Program-made: the position numbers and the translations under genes
Notes under the pieces: generated by a model
Database searches by the model: none
What the model was told of the DNA's origin: nothing
Seen by the model: the letters and a program-made list of their open reading frames with translations, nothing else
Source: Isoetes taiwanensis
Lineage: Eukaryota > Streptophyta > Lycopodiopsida > Isoetales > Isoetaceae
Length of the DNA stretch: 64,000 nucleotides
Direction of reading: 5' to 3'
Assembly (NCBI GenBank): GCA_021234155.1
Contig: JAJEKV010000009.1
Coordinates: 12,840,546-12,904,545 of the forward strand
Shown: positions 7,691 through 29,270 of the stretch, one piece after another
Position numbering within the stretch: position 1 is the first letter of the stretch
Layout of the letters: the number at the start of each line of letters is the position of its first letter

Positions 7691-9482
7691 TTACATTTTA
7701 TCCTAGAAAAAATCCATACCAAATCCACACAATGGTGGAGGTGGCGGTGGTGGCGAAAAAAACCCGAACGACCAACTTAGCCTCTTAAAGGCCTTTGCAG
7801 GTTTAGGGTCGCTAAAGAAGGCTACCAAGCCACGCGAGAAGTAAAGTTGTGAACAATAGATATGCCATCGTGCATCCCATGGTTCTTTGGACATGTGCAA
7901 AACTTGCAAGTTATTTATATGGAGTCGCATGAATAACATAGTAGGAAAGCAACAAATGTTACAACAAACATCATTACAAAACATTGGGATTTGAATAATT
8001 AAAAGTGTCTTTATATATTTGGTTATTAGACAATTAAAAAATTTAATACTCTTAAACATGGCAAGATATACAATATTGTATTCATTATTTGAGTTGTGAC
8101 AACAACAATTTTGACATCTCCAAGGCATCCATGCACTTCATGTGTCGCCTTTGTCTCACAACCATGGTAGAAGATATTCCAACACTTTGTAAGGCTTCAA
8201 CAACTTCTAAGCTTTGGGTCGTGATGAGAATACGCCTTCACGTAGGCACATCATTCTTGTTTTTGCTCCTCCAACTTGTCAAGACGCCGTTGGTACATAT
8301 GGGTTGGATTAATCCATTGGGCATTGTTGTTATTATTAAACCACTCCATTAAATCGTCGTGATAGCTTGCACGAAATCCGGAAGCATCTCATAAATATAT
8401 CCCAATGCATAGACATCATGAATTTCGTGTCCCCATACACGATCATCATCCTTTTGATTTCTCAAACACGCTTCCTCTAACCATGGATATTTTGCTTGTC
8501 CATCCAAAGTAAGTACCGGCACTTCAACAAGGGACGACGCTCTTTGGCGTAAAATGAATTGCATTGTCCCAATCACCAATGGCCACCCACACATTTTGGT
8601 ACTCATCATCAAAATGTAATTTGACTCTCTTGCAATTAAGCTTTGTGTGAGTGAAGTGGCCTTTGTGGATCTCAACGACACCTTCCTCATAGGGCAAGAG
8701 CTATCTCCTCGAACATATGATATACAACTTCGCATTTTGCTCCTAAGTTCAGCTATATGTGTTTGTCGAGTTCTTCTTGGCTCTAGCAATTGCATTTGAC
8801 CATCTTCTAAAACGCGTGACAAGTTATTAGGTAAATAGTCAAACAAGTGTGCAAGTGTCTCTCCATTCATGAAAGGTAGAATCACCATTGGCCCTATGGT
8901 ATCCCCACTAGAGCTAGCAACTTCATATGCAAGTCCAATGGATGTAGCCAAAGGATCGCGGGCTCTTGAAGCGTATGTATCTTTGAGCCATCTCATAATA
9001 CGCCCTATCTTTTGCCCTTGAAAACCCATCCACCGAGATAGCTCATCATCTTGGAAGTGTTGTGTTCCGTTGATTTTGATTTGATACGTCGCGATGTTTG
9101 GTTTCTCCTCAATAAGGCGTATCACATCCACGGCCTCTACGGGCATGGGATCAACAAAGATTGATGTGTTCATGTGATTCTCCAAAGAAAAGTGGGGCTT
9201 GCTAGGCCCCCGCTCCACTAGAGCTTCCCCCATGCAAAGCATTTTTAATTACCTCCAACCGGCGTGCATTGAGATCCGCAATGATGTTCTTGTGATCCAA
9301 ACGCCGCTTCTTTGAGGAATTCCATGAAGCTACCCATTCCTTGACACGAGCCTCGGCATTGGGACTTTTAAGTCAAAGACCAATGCTTCAAACATGTCTT
9401 CAGCTTCATCCATGGGGTTTCCAATCATTGGCTTTACATGTGTGTCAAGGAGAGAAGTCAACATTTCTTCTTGACTGGCCAT
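7690..9482 (-). pseudogene. Protein-kinase-like pseudogene
   Basis: The minus-strand frame opens at an ATG at 9482 (MASQEEMLTSLL) and is shifted at about 9370 and again near 9250. It continues as a 290-codon frame (9242-8349). Kinase-like landmarks are visible: MVILPFMNGETLAHLFD (hinge region), ELRSKMR (helix E), then in a shifted frame FDDEYQNVWVAIGDWDNA (8620-8560, in the place of the catalytic and DFG segments). Back in the first frame comes DVYALGYIYEMLP (helix F, near 8420-8380). The expected HRD and DFG residues are altered, and at least three frame changes are needed. Frames further left (to 7690) end in a proline run and may be the C-terminus. The kinase assignment is inferred from motif order only; the exact family is not recognised. 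Confidence 0.5.
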
Positions 9483-10300: not shown

Positions 10301-13300
10301 ATAAAACATTAAAATTTTATTCTCCTACTCAAACTCAAATTCTTACCTAGAATGTCTTCGAAATTTTTCTTGAAAATTTTCAAAGAGCCCGATTTTGTTA
10401 TTAGTGTACATGCAAAAAATAAAGGCATTCAATAATTAGAAAACTTACATAAATAAAAAAAATAAAAAAAAAAAAAACAAAAAAGACGATTTACGTTGAA
10501 AAGATCATTGACATTAAAACTATTTACATTGTTAATTAAAAGAACTATATATTGACATGTAAAAAAAAATGAAAATAAAAAAAAAAAGAACATAAAAAGA
10601 AGGGGCCTTGTCTTTCAACGACGTCCCCTTCTTGTAATAAAAAATAGAGGAAGAATGGGCCTAGATCTTTCAATGGCCACGCCTTCTTCCATGGAAAAAA
10701 AAATAGAAGGAAGAAGAAGAAGAAGAAGAAGAAGAAGAAGAAGAAGAAGAAGAAGAAGAAGAAGAAGAAGAAGAAGAAGAAGAAGAAGAAGAAGAAGAAT
10801 ATTCTCTTTGAATCTTCAAATCTTCAAACTTTGAGAACTTGCTCTTGGAGTGAGTTCATGACATCTCAAAGGTTTTGATCATAGTTGCATCCATGAGCAT
10901 CCGAGAAGATGAAAGAAAAAATAATTATTGGTCTTAGAGGTTGCCTTAAAAAATTTGATGAATGTTGTTAAAAATTTGGGGAATGGTGATATCTATATGT
11001 TGAATAGAGCCATGACAAGATGGAACATTTTTAAGTACTATGGGTTAAGGACCATGCTAAGAAGCACAAACGCAAATATGAGCTACTACAAGATTGTTTC
11101 TAAGGTTGTTTTTTAAAGTGACCATCTTAAAATGCAAAAATGGTGCAAAAATGCATGTTGAAATGATGGAAATTATGCATAAAAAAGCATGTTTGGAAAT
11201 GATGGAAATTCTAATGATACTTCATAAAAGGCAAAATTATTAACGATGTTGTAATTTCTATGGACCCATAAAAAAATGATGTTACGATTTGGGGTTATAA
11301 TTTCTTTTTCATTTTTTCAACAAAAGGTCTTATTTTGGAACACTTTATAAGCTTCTTATGTCAGTTTCCTTTCTAATAACATGGTTGCAAAAAGCCAAGG
11401 CATTATTAAACGACATGCACATTAAAAATATTCATGAGAAATCGATTTTGGCATTTTGGACCTAAGTTTTATGGCCAAAATCTTGGACGATCTTTGACGA
11501 AAAATGGCGTTGGAAAAAATGTGCCTAAGAAAATATAATGAGGATTTTTGAGGAACGCCACGTCACCTATTATGCATGATTTGCCTAAATGGTCTCTATA
11601 CACATCTTTAGATGGCGATTTTGGTTTAGGGCAAAGATAATGGATGTAAAATCTAGTTGTGGATGCTTGCTTGTAGCCAAGGATCTAAATGAGTTTGTGG
11701 GATCTTATGCATGAACTGGATTTGAATCTTCTAATCCAATGAAAAAAGTAAGGACCGTTTTAATATAAATTTAGATTCAATTTTGGATTTATGCTAAATT
11801 TACAATGACCGGGATGAAAGGATCGAGGGTTAAATAGTTTGGTGTGAATTGCACCCAAATTTATTTCATAGATTTTCATGGAGCTTAACCAAAAGGAACG
11901 CAGCGACAATGATTTCATAGCATTTTTCATGGTGCTTAAACATCTGAAAGCCATAAGATGGCGGTTCCCATGATATTACTTTCTCAAGAAGCGGTTGATT
12001 AAGCCAACTGCCTTGAAAATCTAGTGGAGCTAGGGTTCTTGAGTCCATCAAAAGTATGTGGAAATAAAGCTTCAATCCATTTAGGGTTTGAGATTCAAAA
12101 GTGAATTATGTTTTTTATTTCACATTGCTTTATAATAGCCAATGAAGATATTGGTTGCTTTCTTGCATATGGTTATGCTCTAACATGATGGTAATCTTTC
12201 GCTCTAGTTTTCATGGCCATGGGCATGCTTTAAAATAATTTTGATTCCGTTTATATATCTCGCGTTTAAGATGCATGAGTAACAAATGCTTGTATCAACT
12301 CTTGGGTGACCCGCATAAGGTGCTCTAAAGGAAGGAATTTGGATAAAATAAGACTCACATGACATTGTATATTAGGACCTTTTGCCAAGGCATGTTTGAA
12401 TGCTTTAACTATGCTAAAACTTTACCCCGCCTGGATGTGTCATAAGAACGAATATTTAAGTCATGGGCGTGCTAAATGACATTTGCTTATCACGTATTTG
12501 ATTTCAAATTAATTTGCTTCTGTTGCAAATCTGAATAAACTATGCTGTGGATCACCAAATCTCTAAATAGTTTAAAATCAAACAATGACGGACGCATGTT
12601 TGACTATGGTGAAGCCATAGGTTCTCTATGATGTTGAAATTCTAGTTTTTGCTAAATTTAGTGTTTTTAAATTCTTGAAAGTTACTTTTGAAAATTTAAA
12701 TTTGAATCTTTTGAAAAATGATTTAAAAGGCGATAGTTTGAAATCTTCTTCTATATTGGAATATGTGGAAGGATTATTATGCACTATAAAACTAATTATC
12801 AAGGTTTAATCTTTAGATTTGGGACTAAACAAATTAGTCATCTCGTCTAATGGTACTACTTTGAGACCAATAAATTGAGATGTTTAAAATGTTAAGAATG
12901 TTGTTATTCCATTTCCTTTCCTTGTTAATGTTTTCCTGGGGCAAAAGGATACAATTGCGATGGTGATAAATAGACAAATGTACCTTTGGCCCTTCTATTT
13001 ACCATTATCATGCTAATTGTGTATTGATTGGCTCACAAATGCAGGGTTCTCTCCTCCAATTGTCTCTATTTTGTTTTTGAATAGTGGTCATTGATCATTT
13101 CGAGATGGGAATATTTGGATGATTAAAATTGCCGGGGTTAAAGAGTTATAAAACTGAAGACTTTAAGGATATGACTTATAAGAACTTGTTTTATCTTTTT
13201 TTGGTAAATTTAGATTTTAAAAGCCTATATATTTTTTTGATAAATAAATAAAAATTAAATGATTACTATTTGAAAAAGTTTAAGATATTTAATCTTTATA

Positions 13301-13374
13301 TATTAAAATAAGATCTAAATTTAAGTTATATTCTTATGAAATGTTGATTATATTAAAGATAATGGAAGTAGGAG
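10301..13374. other. Non-coding stretch
   Basis: No frame of convincing coding character is present. The stretch holds A-rich runs at 10457-10480 and 10560-10600, the (GAA)n tract at 10709-10799, and a short imperfect duplication near 11140-11210 (AAATGATGGAAATT twice). From 10800 to 13370 I see only AT-rich single-copy-looking sequence. Confidence 0.6.
10709..10799. repeat. (GAA)n microsatellite
   Basis: An uninterrupted run of about 30 GAA units. It follows an A-rich stretch and a short direct repeat of a TCTTTCAA-containing block. Confidence 0.95.
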
Positions 13375-13492
13375 TACCTGATGTGGCCTGGCATAAAACA
13401 CCGGGATAGATATTGGGAGACATGTCCTTACTTTGAGCGGAACTTTAAATGTTTTTTAACATTATCGCATATAGTCTTTGTAAGAACATATT
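13375..13492. repeat. Dispersed block, copy A
   Basis: About 120 bp starting GTACCTGATG and ending TAAGAACATATTGAAGAAG. It matches 16207-16345 in direct orientation with many substitutions and indels. The copies lie about 2.8 kb apart, one upstream of the Penelope-like element exons and one inside an intron. In copy A the terminal GAAGAA has expanded into a long (GAA)n tract. Confidence 0.7.
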
Positions 13493-13596
13493 GAAGAAGA
13501 AGAAGAAGAAGAAGAAGAAAGAAGAAGAAGAAGAAGAAGAAGAAGAAGAAGAAGAAGAAGAAGAAGAAGAAGAAGAAGAAGAAGAAGAAGAAGAAG
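13493..13596. repeat. (GAA)n microsatellite
   Basis: A GAA run of about 34 units with one interruption (AAAG near 13519). It sits exactly at the GAAGAAGAA end of the dispersed block that is also found at 16207. Glutamate, leucine or serine runs in frames crossing it are artefacts. Confidence 0.95.
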
Positions 13597-14334
13597 ACAA
13601 GATAATGGTCCGGGCTTGTTGGTGCCTTGGTATTGCCACAGATTCATGATACCTAATTAATGGCTAAAGCGGGTAATGATGTACTCTCGGATGATAGGGA
13701 GTGCTCTAATTCAATTGCCTCAATAGACTTTGAAGATGAAAAATATTGACAACGTGATGATATAAAACTGGACAGCAGAGGTCTGTGTTGCATGAGTAGA
13801 ACTCGGTGGTAATTAAGTGTGAATGTCTTGCTGGTGAACATAGTTTCAAACAATGGCAAAGGTGCTCAACTATGGATGCAAGGATGTGTCAAAAACTTGT
13901 ACATGGGGAATTTATAGTTGAACTTGTGACTTCTAAATATGAAGTGGAAAAGAATAATCAGTATTTACCAAGTGTACCATGCAAAAGCTGGAACCCTGGA
14001 GAATATGGCAGGTCTGCAGGCTGAGCCGTAATAAATATGGGTGCAGGCTAAAAAAAAGGGGATATACTGGTCAATGAAGCTAGACACATGGGTGCAGGCT
14101 AAAAGGGAGATATACTGGTCAATGAGGCTATGCACAATATCCCAAAAGGAAAATTTCAGTGCCGCCGGAATTGAATGGGCAACCGAAAAGTAAAAAGGGG
14201 GAACTTTGCACAAAAGCTAGGTTCTCAGAAGCAAAAATGGCACTTATTAGAGGATTGTTAAGCATCTGAGTTGTGCTCTGCGTGGCATAAGAAGGTTCAC
14301 CAGATCTTTGGTGCTATTTCGTAGTGAAGCTGAG

Positions 14335-14493
14335 ATGCCGAAAGGAGTATACGAAAGGGGACCAGGCAAAAAAGCTAAAGGACCCAACAACAACAGCTTC
14401 CTCTCAAAAAAGACTGACAAGGGGAGCTTCAGCCGAAAACCTAGCAATGGTGGAGCTTTTCAAACAGCGATAAGACGAGGATCTCTAAATCAG
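14335..14493 (+). pseudogene. PLE candidate exon A (basic N-terminus)
   Basis: The frame starts with ATG at 14335 (MPKGVYERGPGKKAKG) and encodes 53 residues rich in Lys, Arg, Gly and Ser. It ends at a CAG/GTCGGT donor-like site in phase 0. The frame is also open a little upstream, so the start is the first reasonable ATG rather than a proven one. Assignment to the PLE rests on position and phase only. Confidence 0.35.
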
Positions 14494-14706
14494 GTCGGTG
14501 GTTTCATACTGCTAAAATGGTAAATCGAAAATGCAAAAATGGGTATAAGCAGCGTTTGTACCATGCTTTGTCATGCTTTATCATTCTTAAAACAGTTTAC
14601 GACTTATGTGATGATAAATTAGTGCTGGCTGCTATAATAGGCGGTGAATACAGATATAAGTGGATATAAGTGATTGGGCTCTAAACATAGAGTGATCTTC
14701 ATGTAG

Positions 14707-15018
14707 TTAGGATATTTTGCTGTCTGCAATATGATGGAACAATATAAAAGGCCGGTGCTGCATGCGGATAGACATGTCGATATGGCTTGTGCGATTTGGC
14801 TGTGCATGGATATGAACGGATCAATGGTGCCTAGAAGTAATAACCCATGTAAGGGGTGTACTCAAGAGGCTAATGCAACTGCAATAATCTGTAGTATATG
14901 TAGGTTGCCATTAGATGCTGGCGCCTGCACAATAAGTTGGGTAGAACGAGTGATCTCCTACTGTTACATGAGCAGAAAAGAGTCTGATACAAGGGCTAGC
15001 TTGCATCTAGTTGTATAA
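14707..15018 (+). pseudogene. PLE candidate exon B (Cys-rich)
   Basis: An acceptor-like ATGTAG at 14701-14706 opens a phase-0 frame of about 104 codons. The frame contains CKGC, then CSIC and a further Cys at about 14925, a spacing that could bind zinc. No convincing donor is seen before the frame closes at 15018, so the 3' edge is uncertain. A further small exon may exist at 15681-15750 between a TTTTTTCAG acceptor and a GTGAGG donor, but its phase does not fit the next exon. Confidence 0.3.
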
Positions 15019-16206
15019 AGATTTAAGATCTATGGACCGTTTTGTTCTAATGTTCAGCAGTACAAGGGATAGATGGATGCTTTATAGACTAGAGAGATGG
15101 TGAAAGCATAAAGAGGTAATAGGATTAGCAGACTGGTTTGATGCTTTAACAACCAGAATGGTGTATGGCATCTCGGATGGGCCTATAAGAATTTGGTTCC
15201 TACTGCCATTTAATGATTTATCTGCTTAGTACATTGAGTAGTAAGGTATTTGAGGTATTAAGCTCTTAATTTTAAGTTTCATTGCTCTAATTCAATTTGA
15301 ATAACTGCAGACCTGTTTAAAGCCTAAACACAAGTTTGGGTTAGAATGGTAAAGCTTTTGGGTGTTGTAGCAGGTTGCTAAACGCTGCAATTAGTTAATC
15401 TAATATTTGTTAGACTAAATACAGATGGTAGCTCATATAAAACAGTGAACCAGGTATGTGGTTTTAGAGCTACTTAGATCTGGATAATTTCAGCATGATG
15501 TTGCCCCTGAAGTTAAGTTGATTTTCATGGGTCTACATGTATGTTATTTGCTGAAAATGATAGGTGAAGGGCGATAAGCCAGAGATTTCTATAGCGCCCC
15601 TTGGCTAGTTACCAATGTTTTGCTAACTTTGTCATTGTTTGGGTGCAGGTAACCAGAACTCTCTCTCCTGGTTTTTTCAGCTACAAATGTGGCACAATCC
15701 ATGGACCATAGGAAGAATATGGCCTTATATAGCAATTGTACATGGACTTGGTGAGGTCTTACCTTTTTAAGATGTAACTTTGATGAAAATGATCAATTTG
15801 CAGAATCATAATAATGAACGGGTAGTTCTATTTTCATACCATGATTCAATTAGTGTATTGACTATGAGGAGAAGCAAGATTTATGATGGAAATGAAAACT
15901 GAGGTTCTATAACAGAGTTGGACATGACAAGTTGTAAGTTAAGACTACGAAATACTTTATGATATTTAATGGCACACGTCAAGTTATTCTGAACCAATAC
16001 ATTAATGAAATTTATAGTGTAATTTGCTGAAACTACAGAATTTGGATGAGTATGGAAACATATTTAAGATTAAAAATTGAAATCAAGAAGGCTAAGTTAA
16101 ATAATAATACGTGAAAGGAATAAAGTATGTATAAATCAAAGAGCTGTATCATAAACAGATTTTCAGGACATAAACCATGAATATATGCATTCTGAATGGG
16201 AGTATG

Positions 16207-16345
16207 AGTACCTGATGCGGCCTGGGATCAAAACCAGGGTAGGTATTGGGGTAAATGGTCTTACTTTGTACGAGGCTTTTAGTTGTTTTACAATATCTGA
16301 CCGTAGTCGTAGTAAGAACATATTCGAAGAAGAAATTGTGACATC
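16207..16345. repeat. Dispersed block, copy B
   Basis: Starts GTACCTGATGCGGCCTGG and ends GAACATATTCGAAGAAGAAA. It is a direct-orientation copy of the block at 13375-13492 and lies in the intron between exon B and exon C of the PLE candidate. PLEs are known to carry terminal direct repeats (pseudo-LTRs), but the position inside the transcribed region argues for an independent repeat. Confidence 0.7.
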
Positions 16346-16408
16346 TATTTGCTGGAGGTATTCGGCAAGCGCATCATTTCAGAAACCATACATATAATTA
16401 GTCTAATC

Positions 16409-16525
16409 AGAGCTAAAAGCTCTAGGGTAGAAGTAACCCTTGTTTTTTCAGTCTGATATATGTAATTAGAGCTAAAGCTCTAGGGTAGATATAACCCTTG
16501 TTTTTTCATTCTGATATATGTATAA
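16409..16525. repeat. 59-bp tandem duplication
   Basis: Two copies start at 16409 and 16468. Each begins AGAGCTAAAAGCTCT or AGAGCTAAAGCTCT (near-palindromic), then TAGGGTAGA, CCCTTGTTTTTTCA and CTGATATATGTA. It lies about 100 bp upstream of the exon C acceptor. Confidence 0.9.
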
Positions 16526-16604
16526 GAAATAAGTTTAATCCATTAGGATGGTTTGATGTTTTCAAAGGAGTAACATACACCTTGCACCAAATTGTCTTTT
16601 ACAG

Positions 16605-18095
16605 TACAAAGGCATATGGATCAAACAACTGGCTGACCTAGGATATGGAGCGGTTGGAAGAGCACCTAACAGGGCTGTACAATCAATCCTATGTCTTATT
16701 CCAAATCCTGAGATACATGGGAGCATTCTACGGCTTAATTCGAGCTTACCACAGGATGCATACTCACCAGTAGTACACTTGGGCTTTAGTGCCTGGCTGG
16801 ACCTATTTCTGAAGCTGGATGGGCTGGGTATGGTGACTCATGATTGTGAGAAAATTCTGCAGCAGGTATTCAGTGATATACCAAATATTTTGGCTGACCG
16901 AACGGACCTAGATGATGTGTTAGCCATTGAGTGTAAGGCCGGTGTGGCCTATTTGGAGAAGGTCAACAAGGTTAAGGATAAGGATAGAACTTTCAATAAT
17001 GATCCAATGGTGAACGAAGAACAGACACCTGGATTCACTAAGTTCATACCAAGAGAGGACCTTGAGATAATGAAAATGGATGGGGATTGCAGCCCGACCA
17101 CTCAAAGCTTGGATCTGAGCGGTGATTTAGTAAGACTAACACTACACAACTGCCTACGTTTTCCCATCATTTCAGAGATGGCAATCGAGTGGCTGGGTGA
17201 AGAGTTTGACCATGGTTTATGGCGTAGCCAAAATTTTAGCACCCTTGCCCCCATAAGTACACAGGCATGGATCATGATTGCAGGCTTGAATAATGACCAC
17301 CTGGCAGAAGTTGATGAGGCTGCCAAAAATATGACCAAATTGGTGGACAAAGAAGAGATGGAATTTCCATTTGGGACTGCCCTCTTTGATAAGCATTGTC
17401 AGAACAATAATGGCATTACTGTTTTTACCAAAGCCCACATGGCCTATCCTGGAATTAAAAGGGAATACAATTACCTGCACAGGATTTGGAGATCATATAG
17501 TCCGTACTTTAAATGCAACTGTACTGATAATGCGGTATGCAAGGACTCTATAACTTGGTTTGACCAGGCGATATGGTTTGCATGCAACCATTTGGACCTG
17601 GTGTATCAAAAGTACTCACCTGCTGGAAGAATGGGAGCATTCCTGAACTTTATACAACAGAAGTTGAAGAGGCCAGTAATGGCCCATTTAGTGTACCTCA
17701 AGTGAGGGGCAATGATGGTAAAGATCACTAATAAATTGGCTGCTGACCCAGAGTGTAACGTGCAGGCTACATTTGGACGGTCTAAGCTGGTGGATGTATG
17801 TGAAATGATGGTGAAAGACAGAAACTTCGTACTAGCCAAACACAACATGGCTAAGGAAGAAAATACTACTGTGCAGTCATATGGCTCTGTTAGCAGACAT
17901 GAGGACTATATGCCACCTAGAGTCTCAAGAATAAGTGCAAGTTCCAGCTGCCAAATGGTTGAAAACATCACTGATGGGTCGGATTCCATTGTCAATTGTA
18001 CCAATGATGAAAATTCTGTCTGCAAGGGACCTAAACCAGGCGGGAGTGCAAGAACTGAAGCAATGAAACAGAACCTCTTGAGGTACTCCAATTAG
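16605..18095 (+). pseudogene. PLE candidate exon C (unrecognised 497-codon block)
   Basis: An acceptor TTTTACAG ends at 16604 and a single frame is then open to 18095 except for one TGA at 17703-17705. The frame ends at TAG/GTAACA (18093-18097), exactly where a donor site is expected. If the TAG was CAG and the TGA was CGA, the exon would read through and join exon D in phase 0. The protein is acidic to neutral, with a CNC-x4-VC segment near 17515, and has no domain I can name. It could be the N-terminal part of the PLE protein or an unrelated captured gene. Confidence 0.5.
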
Positions 18096-18301
18096 GTAAC
18101 AAGTGATGACACACATGTTTCATGAAAACTGGAATAGTCCAAAGTACTAATTCAGTATTTCTGTACTTATGCAGTCTCTTTGCGGGCACCAATGATGCCT
18201 TGCATACCACGTACCCGTCGTGTTCATCTTCATAGATGAAGTACTTATAAAAATATAGAGTACTTTACATATATAACAAGTTTTGTAATATGTTACCAAG
18301 A

Positions 18302-18434
18302 AATTTTGATACAGAACTTATGAGATCTCAAAAGCTTGTTGATGGCTTCTTGATGACCATAGTCTGGAATTTTGGTACAGAAATTATGAGATCTCAAAAG
18401 CTTGTGGATGGCTTCTTGATGACCATAGTTTGGA
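18302..18434. repeat. 66-bp tandem duplication in an intron
   Basis: Two nearly identical copies (18302-18367 and 18368-18434), each containing TTATGAGATCTCAAAAGCTT and GGCTTCTTGATGACCATAGT. The frame spanning both is open but is a by-product of duplication. Confidence 0.95.
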
Positions 18435-18646
18435 ATGTAATGTCCCGGTTTACTGAATATATGAAAGTTTACTATTGTAATGATGGATTATTGTCAACAT
18501 CGCAATACAAGTTCTATAATGCTGAATATAACTAGCTAATAAGTTGTAATCCATTGTGGTTACTCTAGGATGGTAATTTAAAAAAATAGCTTATGTTTTA
18601 CGGCATACAGAGTATGATGCAGACTAATTAAAACATAATATTATAG

Positions 18647-19570
18647 GTGGAGGAAGAAGATGAGGATAATGAACGTATTATCACCATTGGCTCCAGTGGT
18701 AGAAGAGTACTATCCAAAAGGGTGGGGACTACAATAAAAAAGGTCAGAATACACTTCTGTTTCTCTTCAAAAATCATTGACAGTATCAACTTGAGAGATA
18801 CCATCAAGGAATATGTATATATGAGGTTAGGAGATTATGGAAACAACCTCATGCAAAGTACGTGCATTGGCTGGAGATATGACAGCCAACTAATTGATCT
18901 GGTGTACAAGCCATTTAGGGTATTTGCTGATAATGAATTACCTAAATGTGTTTGTCATATTCCGGGTTTAGAAAAGTACATTGACCCAGCAGTCGGGCAT
19001 GTTAGAACCCTGGACATGAACATTATTAAATCAAGAAAACTGAGAAATATGTTCAGGAAGGGACTCAATTTCATCCCAGACAAACCATTAAACCTGCATA
19101 AATTCATGGAAGATGTTAAAAAAGGTGTTAACGACATGTTTGATGGGTTTGAAAAAAACGGGTTTATTATTCACCCTTATGAAGTCCAGAGCATTAAGCA
19201 TGGTTTATTGGAGTATATTAAAAACAAAGCAATGGCCAAGTTTAAACATACAGGCATGTTACATGATTCCACAAAAGATGTCAAGGTGAATAGCTGCCTG
19301 AGTTGGCTAACCAGAAACCTATATATTTCGGCTGTGGACAAGGCTGCCAATATACCTTCATTCATTTGCCCATGGCACATCAGAGACAGGGCTAGAGAAA
19401 GATTACAGGGAAAGGATTTTGTCAAGATTAATCAGGACAGGACTGAAATATTGCAGAATATCAATTATGAGCTTAAAAGTATTTTTCAACTGGAATGTCC
19501 ATATGCAGATCGTCTGCCATACTTACTGGGTTTATTTAAAGCTCACAAAAGTGAGTATCGTTGGATCTAA
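18647..19570 (+). pseudogene. PLE exon D: N-terminal RT region
   Basis: The exon follows an ATTATAG acceptor and opens with an acidic stretch (EEEDEDNERI). It then carries HVRTLDMNIIKSRKLRNMF, an LHKFMEDVKKGVNDMF helix, AVDKAANIPSFIC and LPYLLGLFKAHK followed by YRWI. These correspond to the segments preceding and including the first RT motifs in PLEs. The frame closes with TAA at 19568, immediately after RWI, because of a frameshift or substitution; related sequence continues in other frames. The adjacent intron is 551 bp (18096-18646) and contains a 66-bp tandem duplication. Confidence 0.65.
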
Positions 19571-20164
19571 ATGCCAACAGAACAATATGTACACTGCCAT
19601 CCAAAATTGTCACTAGAGGATTAAGGGGTCTTGCTGAAGTACTACCCAATGCATACATGAAAAGACTTGAAAAGAATTAATGTGCTGCTACCAGGAAAGG
19701 TCAATCCTTATTGGATTGTTAGTTCCGTGTCTGGTTATGCTGAATTTACCCAAAAGATTACAAGCATTTTTACTGCTGACATTTGAAATGCTACGAGAAC
19801 ATTCCTCTTCAAAGGAAATGATGGGATATGCAATATTATTACAGAGGTCATAAAGCTTAGCCATTGATTACTTGAGTAGTAATGGGAAAAGTATTTCTTG
19901 GTTATAGAATACTAGAAGATGATGTGGTATACACTTGGGATTGTGTGAAAACAACCGGGTAAATCATGGCAGTACCTAAACAAGGAAGAATTCTGCAATC
20001 TGAATATATGGCTGTTGAACAACTGCTTTATTATACAAGGAGAAAACATGTGGAGACAGGCATGTGGAATTCCTATGGGATTTTCATGCTCTCAGAATGG
20101 TGCAATCTCTATCTGTCATTTTTTGAAATGAAACATATTGAGAGATTGGCTTCCTTAGGGAGAT
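19571..20164 (+). pseudogene. Frameshifted RT core of the PLE
   Basis: RT-like pieces continue in alternating frames: VTRGLRGLAEVLPNAY (about 19610-19660), NPYWIVSS (19700-19725), FTADI plus CYENIPL (19770-19810), and WRQACGIPMGFSCS with CNLYLSFFEMKHIERL (20050-20145). These fit RT palm and fingers motifs in the correct order. At least four indels and several stops interrupt them. The segment ends at the N run. Confidence 0.6.
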
Positions 20165-20177
20165 NNNNNNNNNNNNN
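20165..20177. other. Assembly gap (13 N)
   Basis: Thirteen undetermined bases. RT-like sequence is present up to the gap and not recognisable after it, so the N run may hide a longer missing or misjoined segment. Confidence 0.98.
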
Positions 20178-26640: not shown

Positions 26641-27129
26641 CTTGCTCGAATGACATTCCCCATGCTGGTACACATTATTAGGGCGAGATGCCATGGCATC
26701 CGGCCCGTACCGCCTACATGGGTAGTCACGCTCACGCGACAAGATGCTAAGTAGAAGCGGCCATCTCGCGCAAGGGGTAGGCACCAAGGGAACCGCCCCC
26801 AGATATTGACCGAGACCTGACCCCAACCCAACAAGAAAACCGCAGACACGAGTTGGCCAAAGTTAAAAGCATTCGCAGACAGGGAGGAGCTGCAGGACTG
26901 ATTCGAGGCAAGATGCAAATTTTCAGGCTGCCAAATGCTGCTGCAAATCCTGCTAACCCTCCAGCAGCCCCTGACCATGCCATTGCTTCACCTGCTACAG
27001 TGGCACGCCCTGCTCAAGTTGCATCACCTTCGATTGCTCGCGACATCTCGCCGCTTCCACCGCCATCACCCCTTCTCGCTCAGTATCGCTTAATCAATCT
27101 CCACCCGCACCCCCAACAACAAATAGAAA

Positions 27130-27956
27130 TTGTGCCTTCGCATGGTCTATTGGAATTGTCGGGCTTCCCATGGCAGAAGGGAGATAGTCTCAACTCAGTT
27201 GCCGCAGACATGGATCTCATCTTCCTCATGGAAACATGGGAGCATGCAGGATACAGGATACCCGACTTGTCAGGATTCCAGCGCTACTCAATCTTCAATG
27301 ATTGCACAGGAAAGTGGGGGCATTGGGGGGTTGCCTGCTACTACCGAACGGCCTTGGCATAATCAATCTCCTTGTTCAAGACAGATAAACACAATCGCTA
27401 CCTGTGGGTGCTTGTGCAAAACTGCAGTAGCAGACCTCTCTTTGTGGCAGCCTGCTACTTTTCACATGCAGAAAGCAACTTCTATCACACCCATTCGGAT
27501 GTCGATACGCTGGACCCCTATGTCGATCAATATGATGACATACAGCAGCATAAGGAGTTGGGCAGTGCCATACTTCTTGGAGACTTCAATGCACGCACCG
27601 GGGTTGAACAACCCATGAGATTCGATCCCTTGACTGATGATGTATTACAGCTGCATCATGCAGAAGGAGCTTGGCCACTGGCATCATATGACAATCAGAT
27701 CACGCGCTATGGTAGACAGTTGCTTTTGCTCTGTGGTATCTTTGACCTGGTAATCTGCAATGGACTGGCACAGTGGCCGTCCACCCGCAAGAGCACTTGT
27801 AGACAGGAAAACCAGGGGGGAGGATCTAGTGTGGTGGACTATGTGCTGGTGCCTGAGCAAGATATGCATGTCTTCAAGTACTTCCAGGTGGGAACAGCTA
27901 ATAGGGATGAAGAGATCGACTCAGACCACTTACCACTTTACTTGAAGTTGGCTTGA
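27130..27956 (+). pseudogene. LINE endonuclease domain
   Basis: The frame runs from MVYWNCRA (near 27145, one frame change at about 27165) through DLIFLMETWEHAGY and GVACYYR. It then passes a TAA at 27360 to a 190-codon stretch with LLGDFNARTG (27565-27600), SVVDYVLV (27830-27855) and DSDHLPLYLKLA (27915-27955). These are the catalytic landmarks of the exonuclease-endonuclease-phosphatase fold (N, E, D-x-N and SDH). The TAA replaces a likely CAA. This part nicks target DNA in LINE retrotransposition. Confidence 0.8.
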
Positions 27957-28149
27957 CAGGTTGTGCGAACCCCCTGTGCAACAATTCCTCACATGCCTCA
28001 GCTGCGATTGGATTATGAACATGCAGGGGCTTATGCCCAGATGACCTGGCAGAAATTTTGCAATATCCTACACTAGAGCAACAGACAGGTCGGCTGACTG
28101 ATGTGCTTAGGACTGCGGCAGAGAGTGCTTTGGGATAAGTCGCCCGCGA

Positions 28150-29270
28150 TGGACCTCCAGGAACACAACCTTCCCACGCAATCAATGGTTTGATGCAGAG
28201 TGCAAGGAACACAAATGTCGGCTCACCAGTCACGACCGCTTCGCCCACATGTAATGACAAGATGCATCGCCTTCCTTAAAGCTAAGAAAGCCGTACATTG
28301 CAAAAAGATCAAAGGGAAATGTTTTACCTCCTAGAACGCCATTCCGTGACCTTCCGCTAAGGGTTCTTAGAAAGCCGCGACCCACGGGAACATCACTCGA
28401 AAGCGCTGGAGGCAATACTTGCAACAGCTATACGACCCTCAGGGTGCACATGCAGCATTACCCCTACAAGAAGGCCCAGTGCTGGAAATCACAGATTCGG
28501 ACCTGGAACAAGGCTTACAGCGTCTTGGCAATGGAAAAGCGCCAGACCTGGATGGTATGCAGGCAGAATTGCTTAAGTGGGTAGGGCCGTCCATAGTACC
28601 AGTGCTGACCACCTTGTTCATCAAGGCATTACAGGAAGGCTTTCCACTGCATTGGACCAATAGCAGAGTTGTTCCCATCTATAAGGCAGGCGACCCGCAC
28701 TGCTCCAGCCAATTACCGAACAATCATGGTCGGCCGGTTTGCAAAATCGCTATCGGAATTCTCGAGCAAAAGCGGCTTGACTGGCTGGGCAGAGGCAGCA
28801 GAGGTGCGGGCCCTCACCCAGGCAGGATTCAGATCTCGACACTCAACCATTGACCACATCTTCACGTTGCAAACTCTAGTTGAAGACAGCAGGAACTGCC
28901 GTCATGATCTATATTGTTGCTTCGTGGATTTTGCCAAGGCGTTTGACGATGTGCTTTGGAAAAAACTATGGGCAAGATTGCGACAGTTGGGGGTTCCTGT
29001 AGATTTGTAGAATGTAGTGTTGCTAACACTGTTTGGGCTTTACATTGATCAATTTGGAGAGCTGGCTTGCTGATAATGGGGGCGACGGACCTCACCTTCT
29101 CCACCAGATCATCAGGCAGTTAATATATGCTGATGATGTGGGCCTCCTAGCTTACACACCAACAGACATGCAACGACATCTCGATGCCCTGGACACATTC
29201 TGCCAAGCAACGGATATGCGCGTCAACCTTGCCAAGACTAAGGTGGTTCTTATATCATCCTCACATTAGC
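28150..29270 (+). pseudogene. LINE reverse transcriptase domain
   Basis: Landmarks are NQWFDAECKEHK (28180-28215), LGNGKAPDLDG (28530-28560), VVPIYKAGDP (28660-28690), NYRTI (28708-28725) and QAGFRSRHSTIDHIF (28820-28865). They continue with LYCCFVDFAKAFDDVLWKKLW (motif A, about 28910-28975) and LIYADDVGLLAY (motif C, about 29122-29157). Motif B and the region around 28985-29050 are damaged, and several frame changes are required. The catalytic YADD is intact. Confidence 0.85.

Follow-up and report, generated by a model that had tools for sequence, protein, structure and literature searches.

An interstitial Penelope-like retroelement of Isoetes taiwanensis with a telomerase-like reverse transcriptase, no recognisable endonuclease and a putative internal microsatellite template

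The window analysed here, a stretch of 64,000 nucleotides from Isoetes taiwanensis, holds one copy of a multicopy Penelope-like retroelement (PLE), interrupted by a gap of 13 N (Table 1). The element comprises a short first exon, an open reading frame for a large protein (ORF1) and an exon for a reverse transcriptase (RT), and the 3' ends of its genomic copies recur at one site within the first intron. Considering all the evidence given below, we find it probable (roughly 0.6) that this is a mobile PLE whose RT is telomerase-like, which has no recognisable endonuclease and which base pairing guides to microsatellites. Further copies were sought in the assembly of the species (1,658,258,908 bases, 1110 contigs; loci are labelled L and contigs C), which the genome paper (PMC8566536) reports to combine nanopore reads with Bionano maps. 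The window copy itself is defective: it carries an in-frame stop within ORF1, its RT frame is broken from about 19565 onwards, and the gap removes the C-terminus of the RT and the 3' end of the element. Given that the assembly is nanopore-based and that the broken stretch abuts the gap, the frame breaks beside the gap may be an assembly error. A near-identical copy on contig C1068 (L002/L009) matches the window RT exon at 100% identity over the first 307 amino acids and is open over 689.

Table 1. Features of the window copy and of its left surroundings (introns are proposed from conservation among copies).
Feature	Position	Strand	Remarks
Unoccupied host repeat	10372–10846	+	Internal (GAA)30 at 10710–10799; four other elements have its left half as their left flank
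Remnant with pseudo-LTR-related pieces	12814–13501	+	GAA tract at its end; window element directly after
(GAA)n tract, 5' border of the element	13493–13595		Runs 13493–13519 and 13521–13595; GAA tract at the equivalent border in the GAA-clade loci displayed
5' pseudo-LTR	13517–16334	+	Spans exon 1 and the greater part of intron 1; ends at the putative internal initiation site
Exon 1	14335–14493	+	MPKGVYERGPGKK..., basic; ends CAG/GT in phase 0 after codon 53; kept in other copies
Intron 1 (putative)	14494–16604	+	Donor 14494, acceptor AG 16603–16604; holds the putative initiation site
Putative internal initiation site and proposed template	16326–16334	+	GAAGAAGAA; eight GAA-clade 3' pseudo-LTRs end exactly here
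Hairpin 3' of the proposed template	16349–16368	+	Pairing and covariation in 18 copies
Exon 2, ORF1	16605–18095	+	About 500 amino acids in intact copies; TGA at 17703–17705 here; conserved terminal stop at 18093–18095
Intron 2 (putative)	18096–18646	+	551 bp, GT..AG, after the ORF1 stop
RT exon	18647–20164	+	Open to 19570, then with a broken frame; the gap removes the C-terminus
Assembly gap	20165–20177		13 N, truncating the window copy

An initial annotation of this locus, made from its letters, had read a block of about 500 codons as running through a phase-0 intron of 551 bp into the RT exon, and had proposed a PLE carrying a novel N-terminal domain; it did not mention the internal TGA, the frame breaks or the gap. 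Its start coincides with the ATG of what proves to be a conserved first exon and the GT..AG interval is indeed present, but the block does not continue into the RT exon, because a TAG ends it directly before the GT. This stop is conserved; it was found in all 15 ORF1 copies whose C-terminus was displayed (among 16 frames, L015 stopping early), including two copies from a second, TA-associated clade that are only 29–30% identical in ORF1, and a GT donor follows it closely in 14 of the 15 by a count made by eye, L026 being the exception. A conserved stop before a splice donor indicates that ORF1 is a separate protein and not a domain of the RT. The RT exon, for its part, begins in phase 0; in L009 the first methionine of this exon is residue 59, which comes after the invariant residues 32, 36, 41 and 42. 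Exon 1 joins it in frame, and ends at a phase-0 CAG/GT in 29 of 33 instances, some of which are the two terminal repeats of one element. The in-frame junction and the late methionine make alternative splicing likelier than a fusion: exons 1 and 2 would yield ORF1, exons 1 and 3 the RT, and exon 1 probably supplies the start codon to both. This layout is alike in the copies examined, which have kept their introns in the genome, as had been anticipated. In the TA clade exon 1 is longer (105–109 codons; L027 8900–9217 and L028 2359–2685) and starts with MAKPGRPEG or MAGRPEG, which we take to resemble an AT-hook; exon 1 of L027 also gives weak SAP matches (E 0.04–0.07).

The RT exon of the window has at least 129 matches in the genome, many of them in open frames of about 700 amino acids. 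The peptides on which the initial annotation had based its RT call do occur in the order it gave: HVRTLDMNII, VDKAANIPSFIC and LPYLLGLFKAHK lie in the frame open from 18647 to 19570, and CGIPMGFSCS follows further on in the same frame. CYENIPL falls in another frame in the window, whereas in intact copies the landmarks stand within a single open frame of about 690 amino acids. This order presumably marks a PLE-type RT, as do a DKA(A/S/T/G)N block and a YIDD/YMDD box. An alignment was made of the RT frames from 25 of the 26 larger loci (L009–L028 and L039–L044), L021 being interrupted. RVT_1 is matched weakly in all 25 at E≤1, the best value being 1.5e-5; three scores displayed, at 19.6–23.2 bits, are under the curated cut-off of 29.6. 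An AlphaFold2 model of the RT (mean predicted local distance difference test, pLDDT, 77.7; predicted template modelling score 0.70) was compared with the PDB by fold. Ranks 1 to 11 are all telomerase reverse transcriptase (TERT), eight of them at E≤1e-3 with a best value of 2.7e-7, and the first RT other than TERT is that of a group II intron, at E 0.22; a sequence-profile search of the PDB with the RT gave no match (best E 0.53). A PLE-type RT, as had been suspected, is thus supported by the weak RVT_1 matches, by motifs and by the modelled fold, which relates it to telomerase. Upstream of the RT core, two cysteines of a CxC motif (C101 and C103) are invariant in the 25 copies, and only about 100 amino acids precede them in the RT exon, where no N-terminal GIY-YIG nuclease joined to the RT was matched. 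Nor did GIY-YIG give a match at E≤1 anywhere in 25 RT, 19 ORF1 and 4 exon-1 proteins, so that the nuclease is as invisible in these copies as it had been in the window. A search for relatives in viral contigs gave 62 pattern matches, none of which was confirmed.

ORF1 has at least 114 matches genome-wide, and its linkage to the RT stands. ORF1 precedes the RT, in the same orientation, in 78 of the best 89 among the 129 RT matches, the other 40 (TA clade and some fragments) being left out of this comparison, and 78 of the 114 ORF1 matches have a listed RT 0.77–1.99 kb downstream. Twelve unpaired ORF1 matches, including C1103:2169625 and C1087:497854, are only 35–39% identical; the single one tested has an RT homologue downstream, so that the twelve probably represent a third clade of the element. 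Both proteins are under purifying selection, as judged from ratios of nonsynonymous to synonymous change (Nei-Gojobori, own script; pairs with dS 0.05–1.5): the median is 0.094 for nine RT pairs and the value for three ORF1 pairs is 0.073, synonymous differences being below 0.7 in only 18 of 300 RT and 9 of 171 ORF1 pairs and saturated in the rest. ORF1 carries invariant Cys, His, Asp and Glu residues. It had been noted as a long block of no known family, and this has held: the Pfam search of 19 copies gave no meaningful match (best E 0.018, in 3 of the 19), its profile and its model found nothing in the PDB, and a fold search of the PDB and of viral models returned no match at E≤1e-3.

Collecting copies, as the initial annotation had advised, located the termini as well, and revealed an internal site with the sequence of the flanking microsatellite, which that annotation had not noted. 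Direct repeats, that is, pseudo-long terminal repeats (pseudo-LTRs), flank the element bodies, and units often stand in tandem. Such repeats were found in 19 of the 20 loci L009–L028, although L020 has merely a 328-bp piece and L022 a tandem RT-end piece; none was found in L028 or in the gap-cut segment of the window. The main pairs are 92–99.9% identical. Downstream of the RT stop the order is about 110 bp with conserved hairpins, then a (GAA)n or (TA)n tract according to the clade, then the downstream pseudo-LTR. In 11 of 25 loci the downstream copy of intron 1 ends exactly at one internal site of this intron: after GAAGAAGAA in eight loci of the GAA clade (L009, L010, L013, L014, L023, L024, L025 and L026) and after TATATAT in three of the TA clade (L027, L041 and L044). 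The 5' pseudo-LTR of the window, compared over 13553–16334 with the 3' pseudo-LTR of L009 (7677–10445), is 93.4% identical to it and the match stops exactly at 16334. In four loci (L011, L015, L016 and L017) the downstream copy continues past the site as a tandem unit, and in the other ten (L012, L018, L019, L020, L021, L022, L028, L039, L040 and L043) it is partial, truncated or not reached, these ten being uninformative. In L019 a matching end lies about 5 kb further on (C907:44463112), and its pseudo-LTR therefore probably contains an insertion.

Beyond the junction the sequence continues as a run of the like repeat, of at least 18 nt in 9 of the 11 loci, and the type of site agrees with the type of flank in all 11 (chance 1/165 given the margins); without L024 and L041 the agreement is 9 of 9 (1/36, by hand). 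Genome-wide, GTAAGAACATNNTCGAAGAAGAA, which joins the motif to the site, occurs at 151 places, 63 of which continue with GAAGAA, and its reversed-pattern controls at none, and CTAGTCTAGTCTATATATATATATATA, the TA motif followed by (TA)n, occurs at six, with none for the reversed control; L027 accounts for one of the six, and another is found on C318, about 5 kb downstream from a listed RT. These ends suggest that reverse transcription starts internally and thereby fixes the genomic 3' end. A further seven TA-clade 3' ends were considered and rejected, given that six of the seven 700-base windows contain no end and the seventh (L048) continues past the site. As a separate observation, template motifs stand 3.36–3.63 kb apart on C920, C1007, C456, C64, C907, C908 and C985 (11 intervals; 60 of 100 listed places), about half of the 6.1–7.9 kb spacing that is also present, and such half-spaced motifs probably represent a short non-autonomous derivative of the element.

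In both clades a hairpin follows right after the internal site. Over 18 GAA-clade copies 97.6% of the cells are paired and four of the seven pairs are altered on both sides; over seven TA-clade copies the figures are 95.9% and three of seven. Shuffled alignments reach the count of both-side changes in 4 of 500 cases and the covariation score in 0 of 500 for the GAA clade, and in 10 and 3 of 500 for the TA clade, counts that are not probabilities, as the sequences are related. Slid versions of the hairpin have less pairing and a lower score in both clades. No ribozyme, hammerhead included, reaches the Rfam gathering score in the pseudo-LTR among 15 loci, and seven Rfam matches with values up to E 10 in six other loci include no hammerhead. 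Other hairpins, present in both clades, lie between the RT stop and the microsatellite (L009 2325–2436 on the minus strand, with equivalents; L040 2778–2889 on the minus strand). By eye they form a two-hairpin structure whose middle strand can pair with the strand before it or with the one after it, and this could be a switch, a ribozyme, a pause or stop site of reverse transcription or a 3'-processing signal.

The copies behave as insertions into repeats. The window and C1068 copies, whose bodies are about 99% identical over most of 13.6–20.16 kb and about 10% different at about 14.5–15.5 kb, differ immediately outside the element. A left flank is shared by L009, L018, L024 and L026, which are mutually 91–94% identical there, and window positions 10372–10709, part of a host repeat without an element, match these four flanks at 90–92%. 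The flanks of L010 match the two sides of the (GAA)30 of this host repeat weakly, at 71% over 165 bases on the left and at 88–90% over 30–34 bases on the right. An unoccupied repeat that already contains the tract indicates that the target can predate the insertion. The whole window has five GAA/TTC runs of at least 12 bases and no TA run; with so few background runs, GAA repeats of at least 18 nt at seven of the eight GAA-clade junctions are far above background. Elements also stand beside others within one tract, as is shown in L023 (with an older end upstream), L019 (with the hairpins of a preceding unit), and L022 and L025 (with tandem pieces). For the window element too, adjoining another element in one tract is suggested by the remnant that precedes it, which resembles the left flanks of L013 and L014 over 12814–13073 (83% and 78%) and the template regions of L020 and L022 over 13361–13501 (78–79%). 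The copies are interstitial, lying for example at 11.2, 40.9, 44.5 and 46.5 Mb on a contig of 53.1 Mb, and no telomeric repeats were found in the loci scanned. The right flank common to L009, L014 and L024, elements of different families, looks like a young repeat that also has GAA tracts.

How might such an element choose its targets? The most economical model is that, as in telomerase, the 3' end of microsatellite DNA anneals to the internal template. Unspliced element RNA would serve as the template, and its hairpin region would be bound by the RT, perhaps together with ORF1. Within a (TTC)n or (TA)n tract, a nick or break would provide a DNA 3' end, coming from breakage, from a host nuclease or from ORF1, and this end would anneal to the short internal template and prime cDNA synthesis towards the 5' end of the RNA. 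Synthesis would finish in the repeat tract with which the upstream pseudo-LTR begins, and the new cDNA end could re-anneal to the microsatellite, leading to the joining of the second end. Because intron 1 holds the proposed template, only unspliced RNA, and not spliced mRNA, could serve, which offers a possible explanation for the persistence of the introns. In its fullest form the proposal, which we put forward tentatively and hold to be somewhat less than an even chance, is that target choice is endonuclease-free and telomerase-like, that an intronic template beside a hairpin pairs with exposed microsatellite DNA, and that a change of the template between GAA and TA re-aimed the element.

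Two alternatives concern where the cut or the repeat comes from. Ordinary target-primed retrotransposition could be at work, ORF1 being an unrecognised endonuclease that cuts microsatellites, with the match of the template selected for annealing after the cut. ORF1 is conserved, tied to the RT and endowed with the invariant residues described above, and other PLEs encode a GIY-YIG nuclease (PMC11167929); we nevertheless regard this account as unlikely, given that neither Pfam nor the PDB, by profile or by fold, recognises ORF1, and that a cutting ORF1 does not by itself explain why template and target switched jointly. Alternatively, the repeats at the junctions could be made by the element, its RT copying the GAA or TA template over and over in the manner of telomerase and inserting at any break. 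The telomerase-like fold, a 9-nt repeat template beside a hairpin and the variable length of the junction runs, from 3 to 191 nt, would suit such synthesis. However, the tract occupies one and the same position in four elements whose left flank is a common host repeat, and the unoccupied window repeat with its (GAA)30, to which both L010 flanks weakly correspond, argues that the target tract can pre-exist, so that we judge repeat synthesis as the sole source of the tracts to be distinctly improbable, while some repeat addition by the element may occur alongside a pre-existing tract. The other two explanations concern what the element is. A single polyprotein, in which a novel N-terminal domain continues across the phase-0 intron into the RT, would accommodate the GT-AG interval, the phase-0 acceptor and the ORF1–RT linkage; set against the conserved stop and the donor close after it, which extend to the TA clade, and an exon 1 that is itself in frame with the RT exon, it is very improbable. 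Scarcely credible, finally, is a host multigene family spread by tandem duplication of DNA. In favour of such a family, several contigs carry tandem arrays with a spacing of about 7 kb, and diverged copies have intact frames, yet the copies occur on dozens of contigs, end at one internal site, have near-identical bodies in different immediate flanks and are inserted into repeats.

Several observations nonetheless count against base-pairing guidance of a nuclease-free, telomerase-like PLE. ORF1 has no known fold (its model reaches a pLDDT of 57.9) and could be the missing nuclease. The matches to TERT have low template modelling scores (0.25–0.37 for the eight best, with root-mean-square deviations of 12–19), and therefore indicate kinship of fold and not a close model; the PLE assignment of the RT itself was made from motifs and fold. 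Splicing was deduced from conservation, and the steps of the mechanism are proposals drawn from sequence. Around the ends, the junction runs are very short in L024 (3 nt of GAA) and L041 (4 nt of TA), the 3' pseudo-LTR of L018 stops at 8982, short of the site and unexplained, and 88 of the 151 GTAAGAACATNNTCGAAGAAGAA places, those beyond the 63 noted above, are unclassified. A diverged RT copy, L042, has neither the 3' hairpin structure nor a microsatellite beside the RT. For the hairpin, one covariation measure, that of further pair types, is not unusual, as 78 and 121 of the 500 shuffles attain it. The argument from different flanks is weakened by a copy of the L009 left flank (90.8%) that stands 2.7 kb 5' of the window element; this copy is a dispersed repeat and nearer to the L018 flank (93.9%). 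The right flanks of L009, L014 and L024 are 99–100% alike, and the sequence beyond those junctions is therefore itself a repeat.

Telomerase RNA has a short internal repeat template beside RNA structure. The present element resembles telomerase in this arrangement and in its best fold match; it differs in that the putative template lies within the element's own RNA, that whole elements are copied and that the targets are interstitial microsatellites. The Naiad/Chlamys PLEs, described by Craig and colleagues in 2021, reportedly have a CxC before the RT, a bias for insertion into microsatellites and no canonical hammerhead, and are said to carry an N-terminal GIY-YIG nuclease in the same protein as the RT. 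The CxC upstream of the RT is shared with the element described here, which differs in its separate ORF1, in the switch of template and target and in having no GIY-YIG that we could find. In the Penelope/Poseidon PLE of Anolis (PAc), tandem units, pseudo-LTRs and an internal start that places the genomic 3' ends are likewise seen; PAc, however, has a C-terminal GIY-YIG and a hammerhead (PMC11167929), neither of which was found here. Frangieh et al. showed that reverse transcription of a PLE begins internally, within its RNA, and state that the start site in PAc has no homology to the cleaved DNA (PMC11167929), whereas here the putative start site equals the target repeat. Endonuclease (EN)-deficient telomeric PLEs, such as the rotifer Athena/Terminons and the elements of Selaginella, also have no GIY-YIG, and their priming is thought to be aided by RNA repeats complementary to the DNA end (PMC12477314, PMC9033089, PMC3846280). 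Those elements are described at chromosome ends with telomeric repeats, unlike the interstitial copies described here. Unspliced or antisense templates were discussed earlier for intron retention in PLEs (PMC3846280).

PLEs, pseudo-LTRs, internal initiation and EN-deficient PLEs in plants are thus already known. What is apparently new is the joint switch of template and target between clades, the intronic place of the template, and ORF1. A literature search that did not include the key 2021 PLE paper gave no report of the element, of a clade-switched template and target, of an intronic template or of ORF1, and the word Penelope is absent from the main text of the genome paper (PMC8566536). How nuclease-free PLEs insert inside chromosomes and how an internal template arose in a telomerase-type enzyme are open questions, and the element is a possible clue to the movement of such elements without a recognisable DNA-cutting enzyme. 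If the proposed mechanism is true, it would amount to a naturally occurring target-primed system that is programmable through its template and, in function, to an intermediate between telomerase and PLEs, and the intronic place of the template would also explain why these retroelements keep their introns. Given that two clades with a matched difference in template and target coexist in one genome, one RT and two RNAs would suffice to test the proposal directly. Regardless, ORF1 constitutes a large conserved protein family without known relatives in the libraries searched.

Some minor observations concern the window. Between 14500 and 15500 its divergence from L009 rises to about 14% per 250 bp within copies that are otherwise about 99% identical, and this stretch is perhaps a mosaic pseudo-LTR, formed through template switching or gene conversion. 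A solo pseudo-LTR at 10781–13520, as an insertion polymorphism relative to L009, was considered and rejected: only 12814–13073 and 13361–13501 are pseudo-LTR-like, and the flank in common with L009 belongs to a dispersed repeat. Elsewhere, by eye, the end of a Copia-like retrotransposon polyprotein lies at 1916–2644, and separate open frames resembling the endonuclease and RT of a non-LTR retrotransposon lie at 26781–28853.

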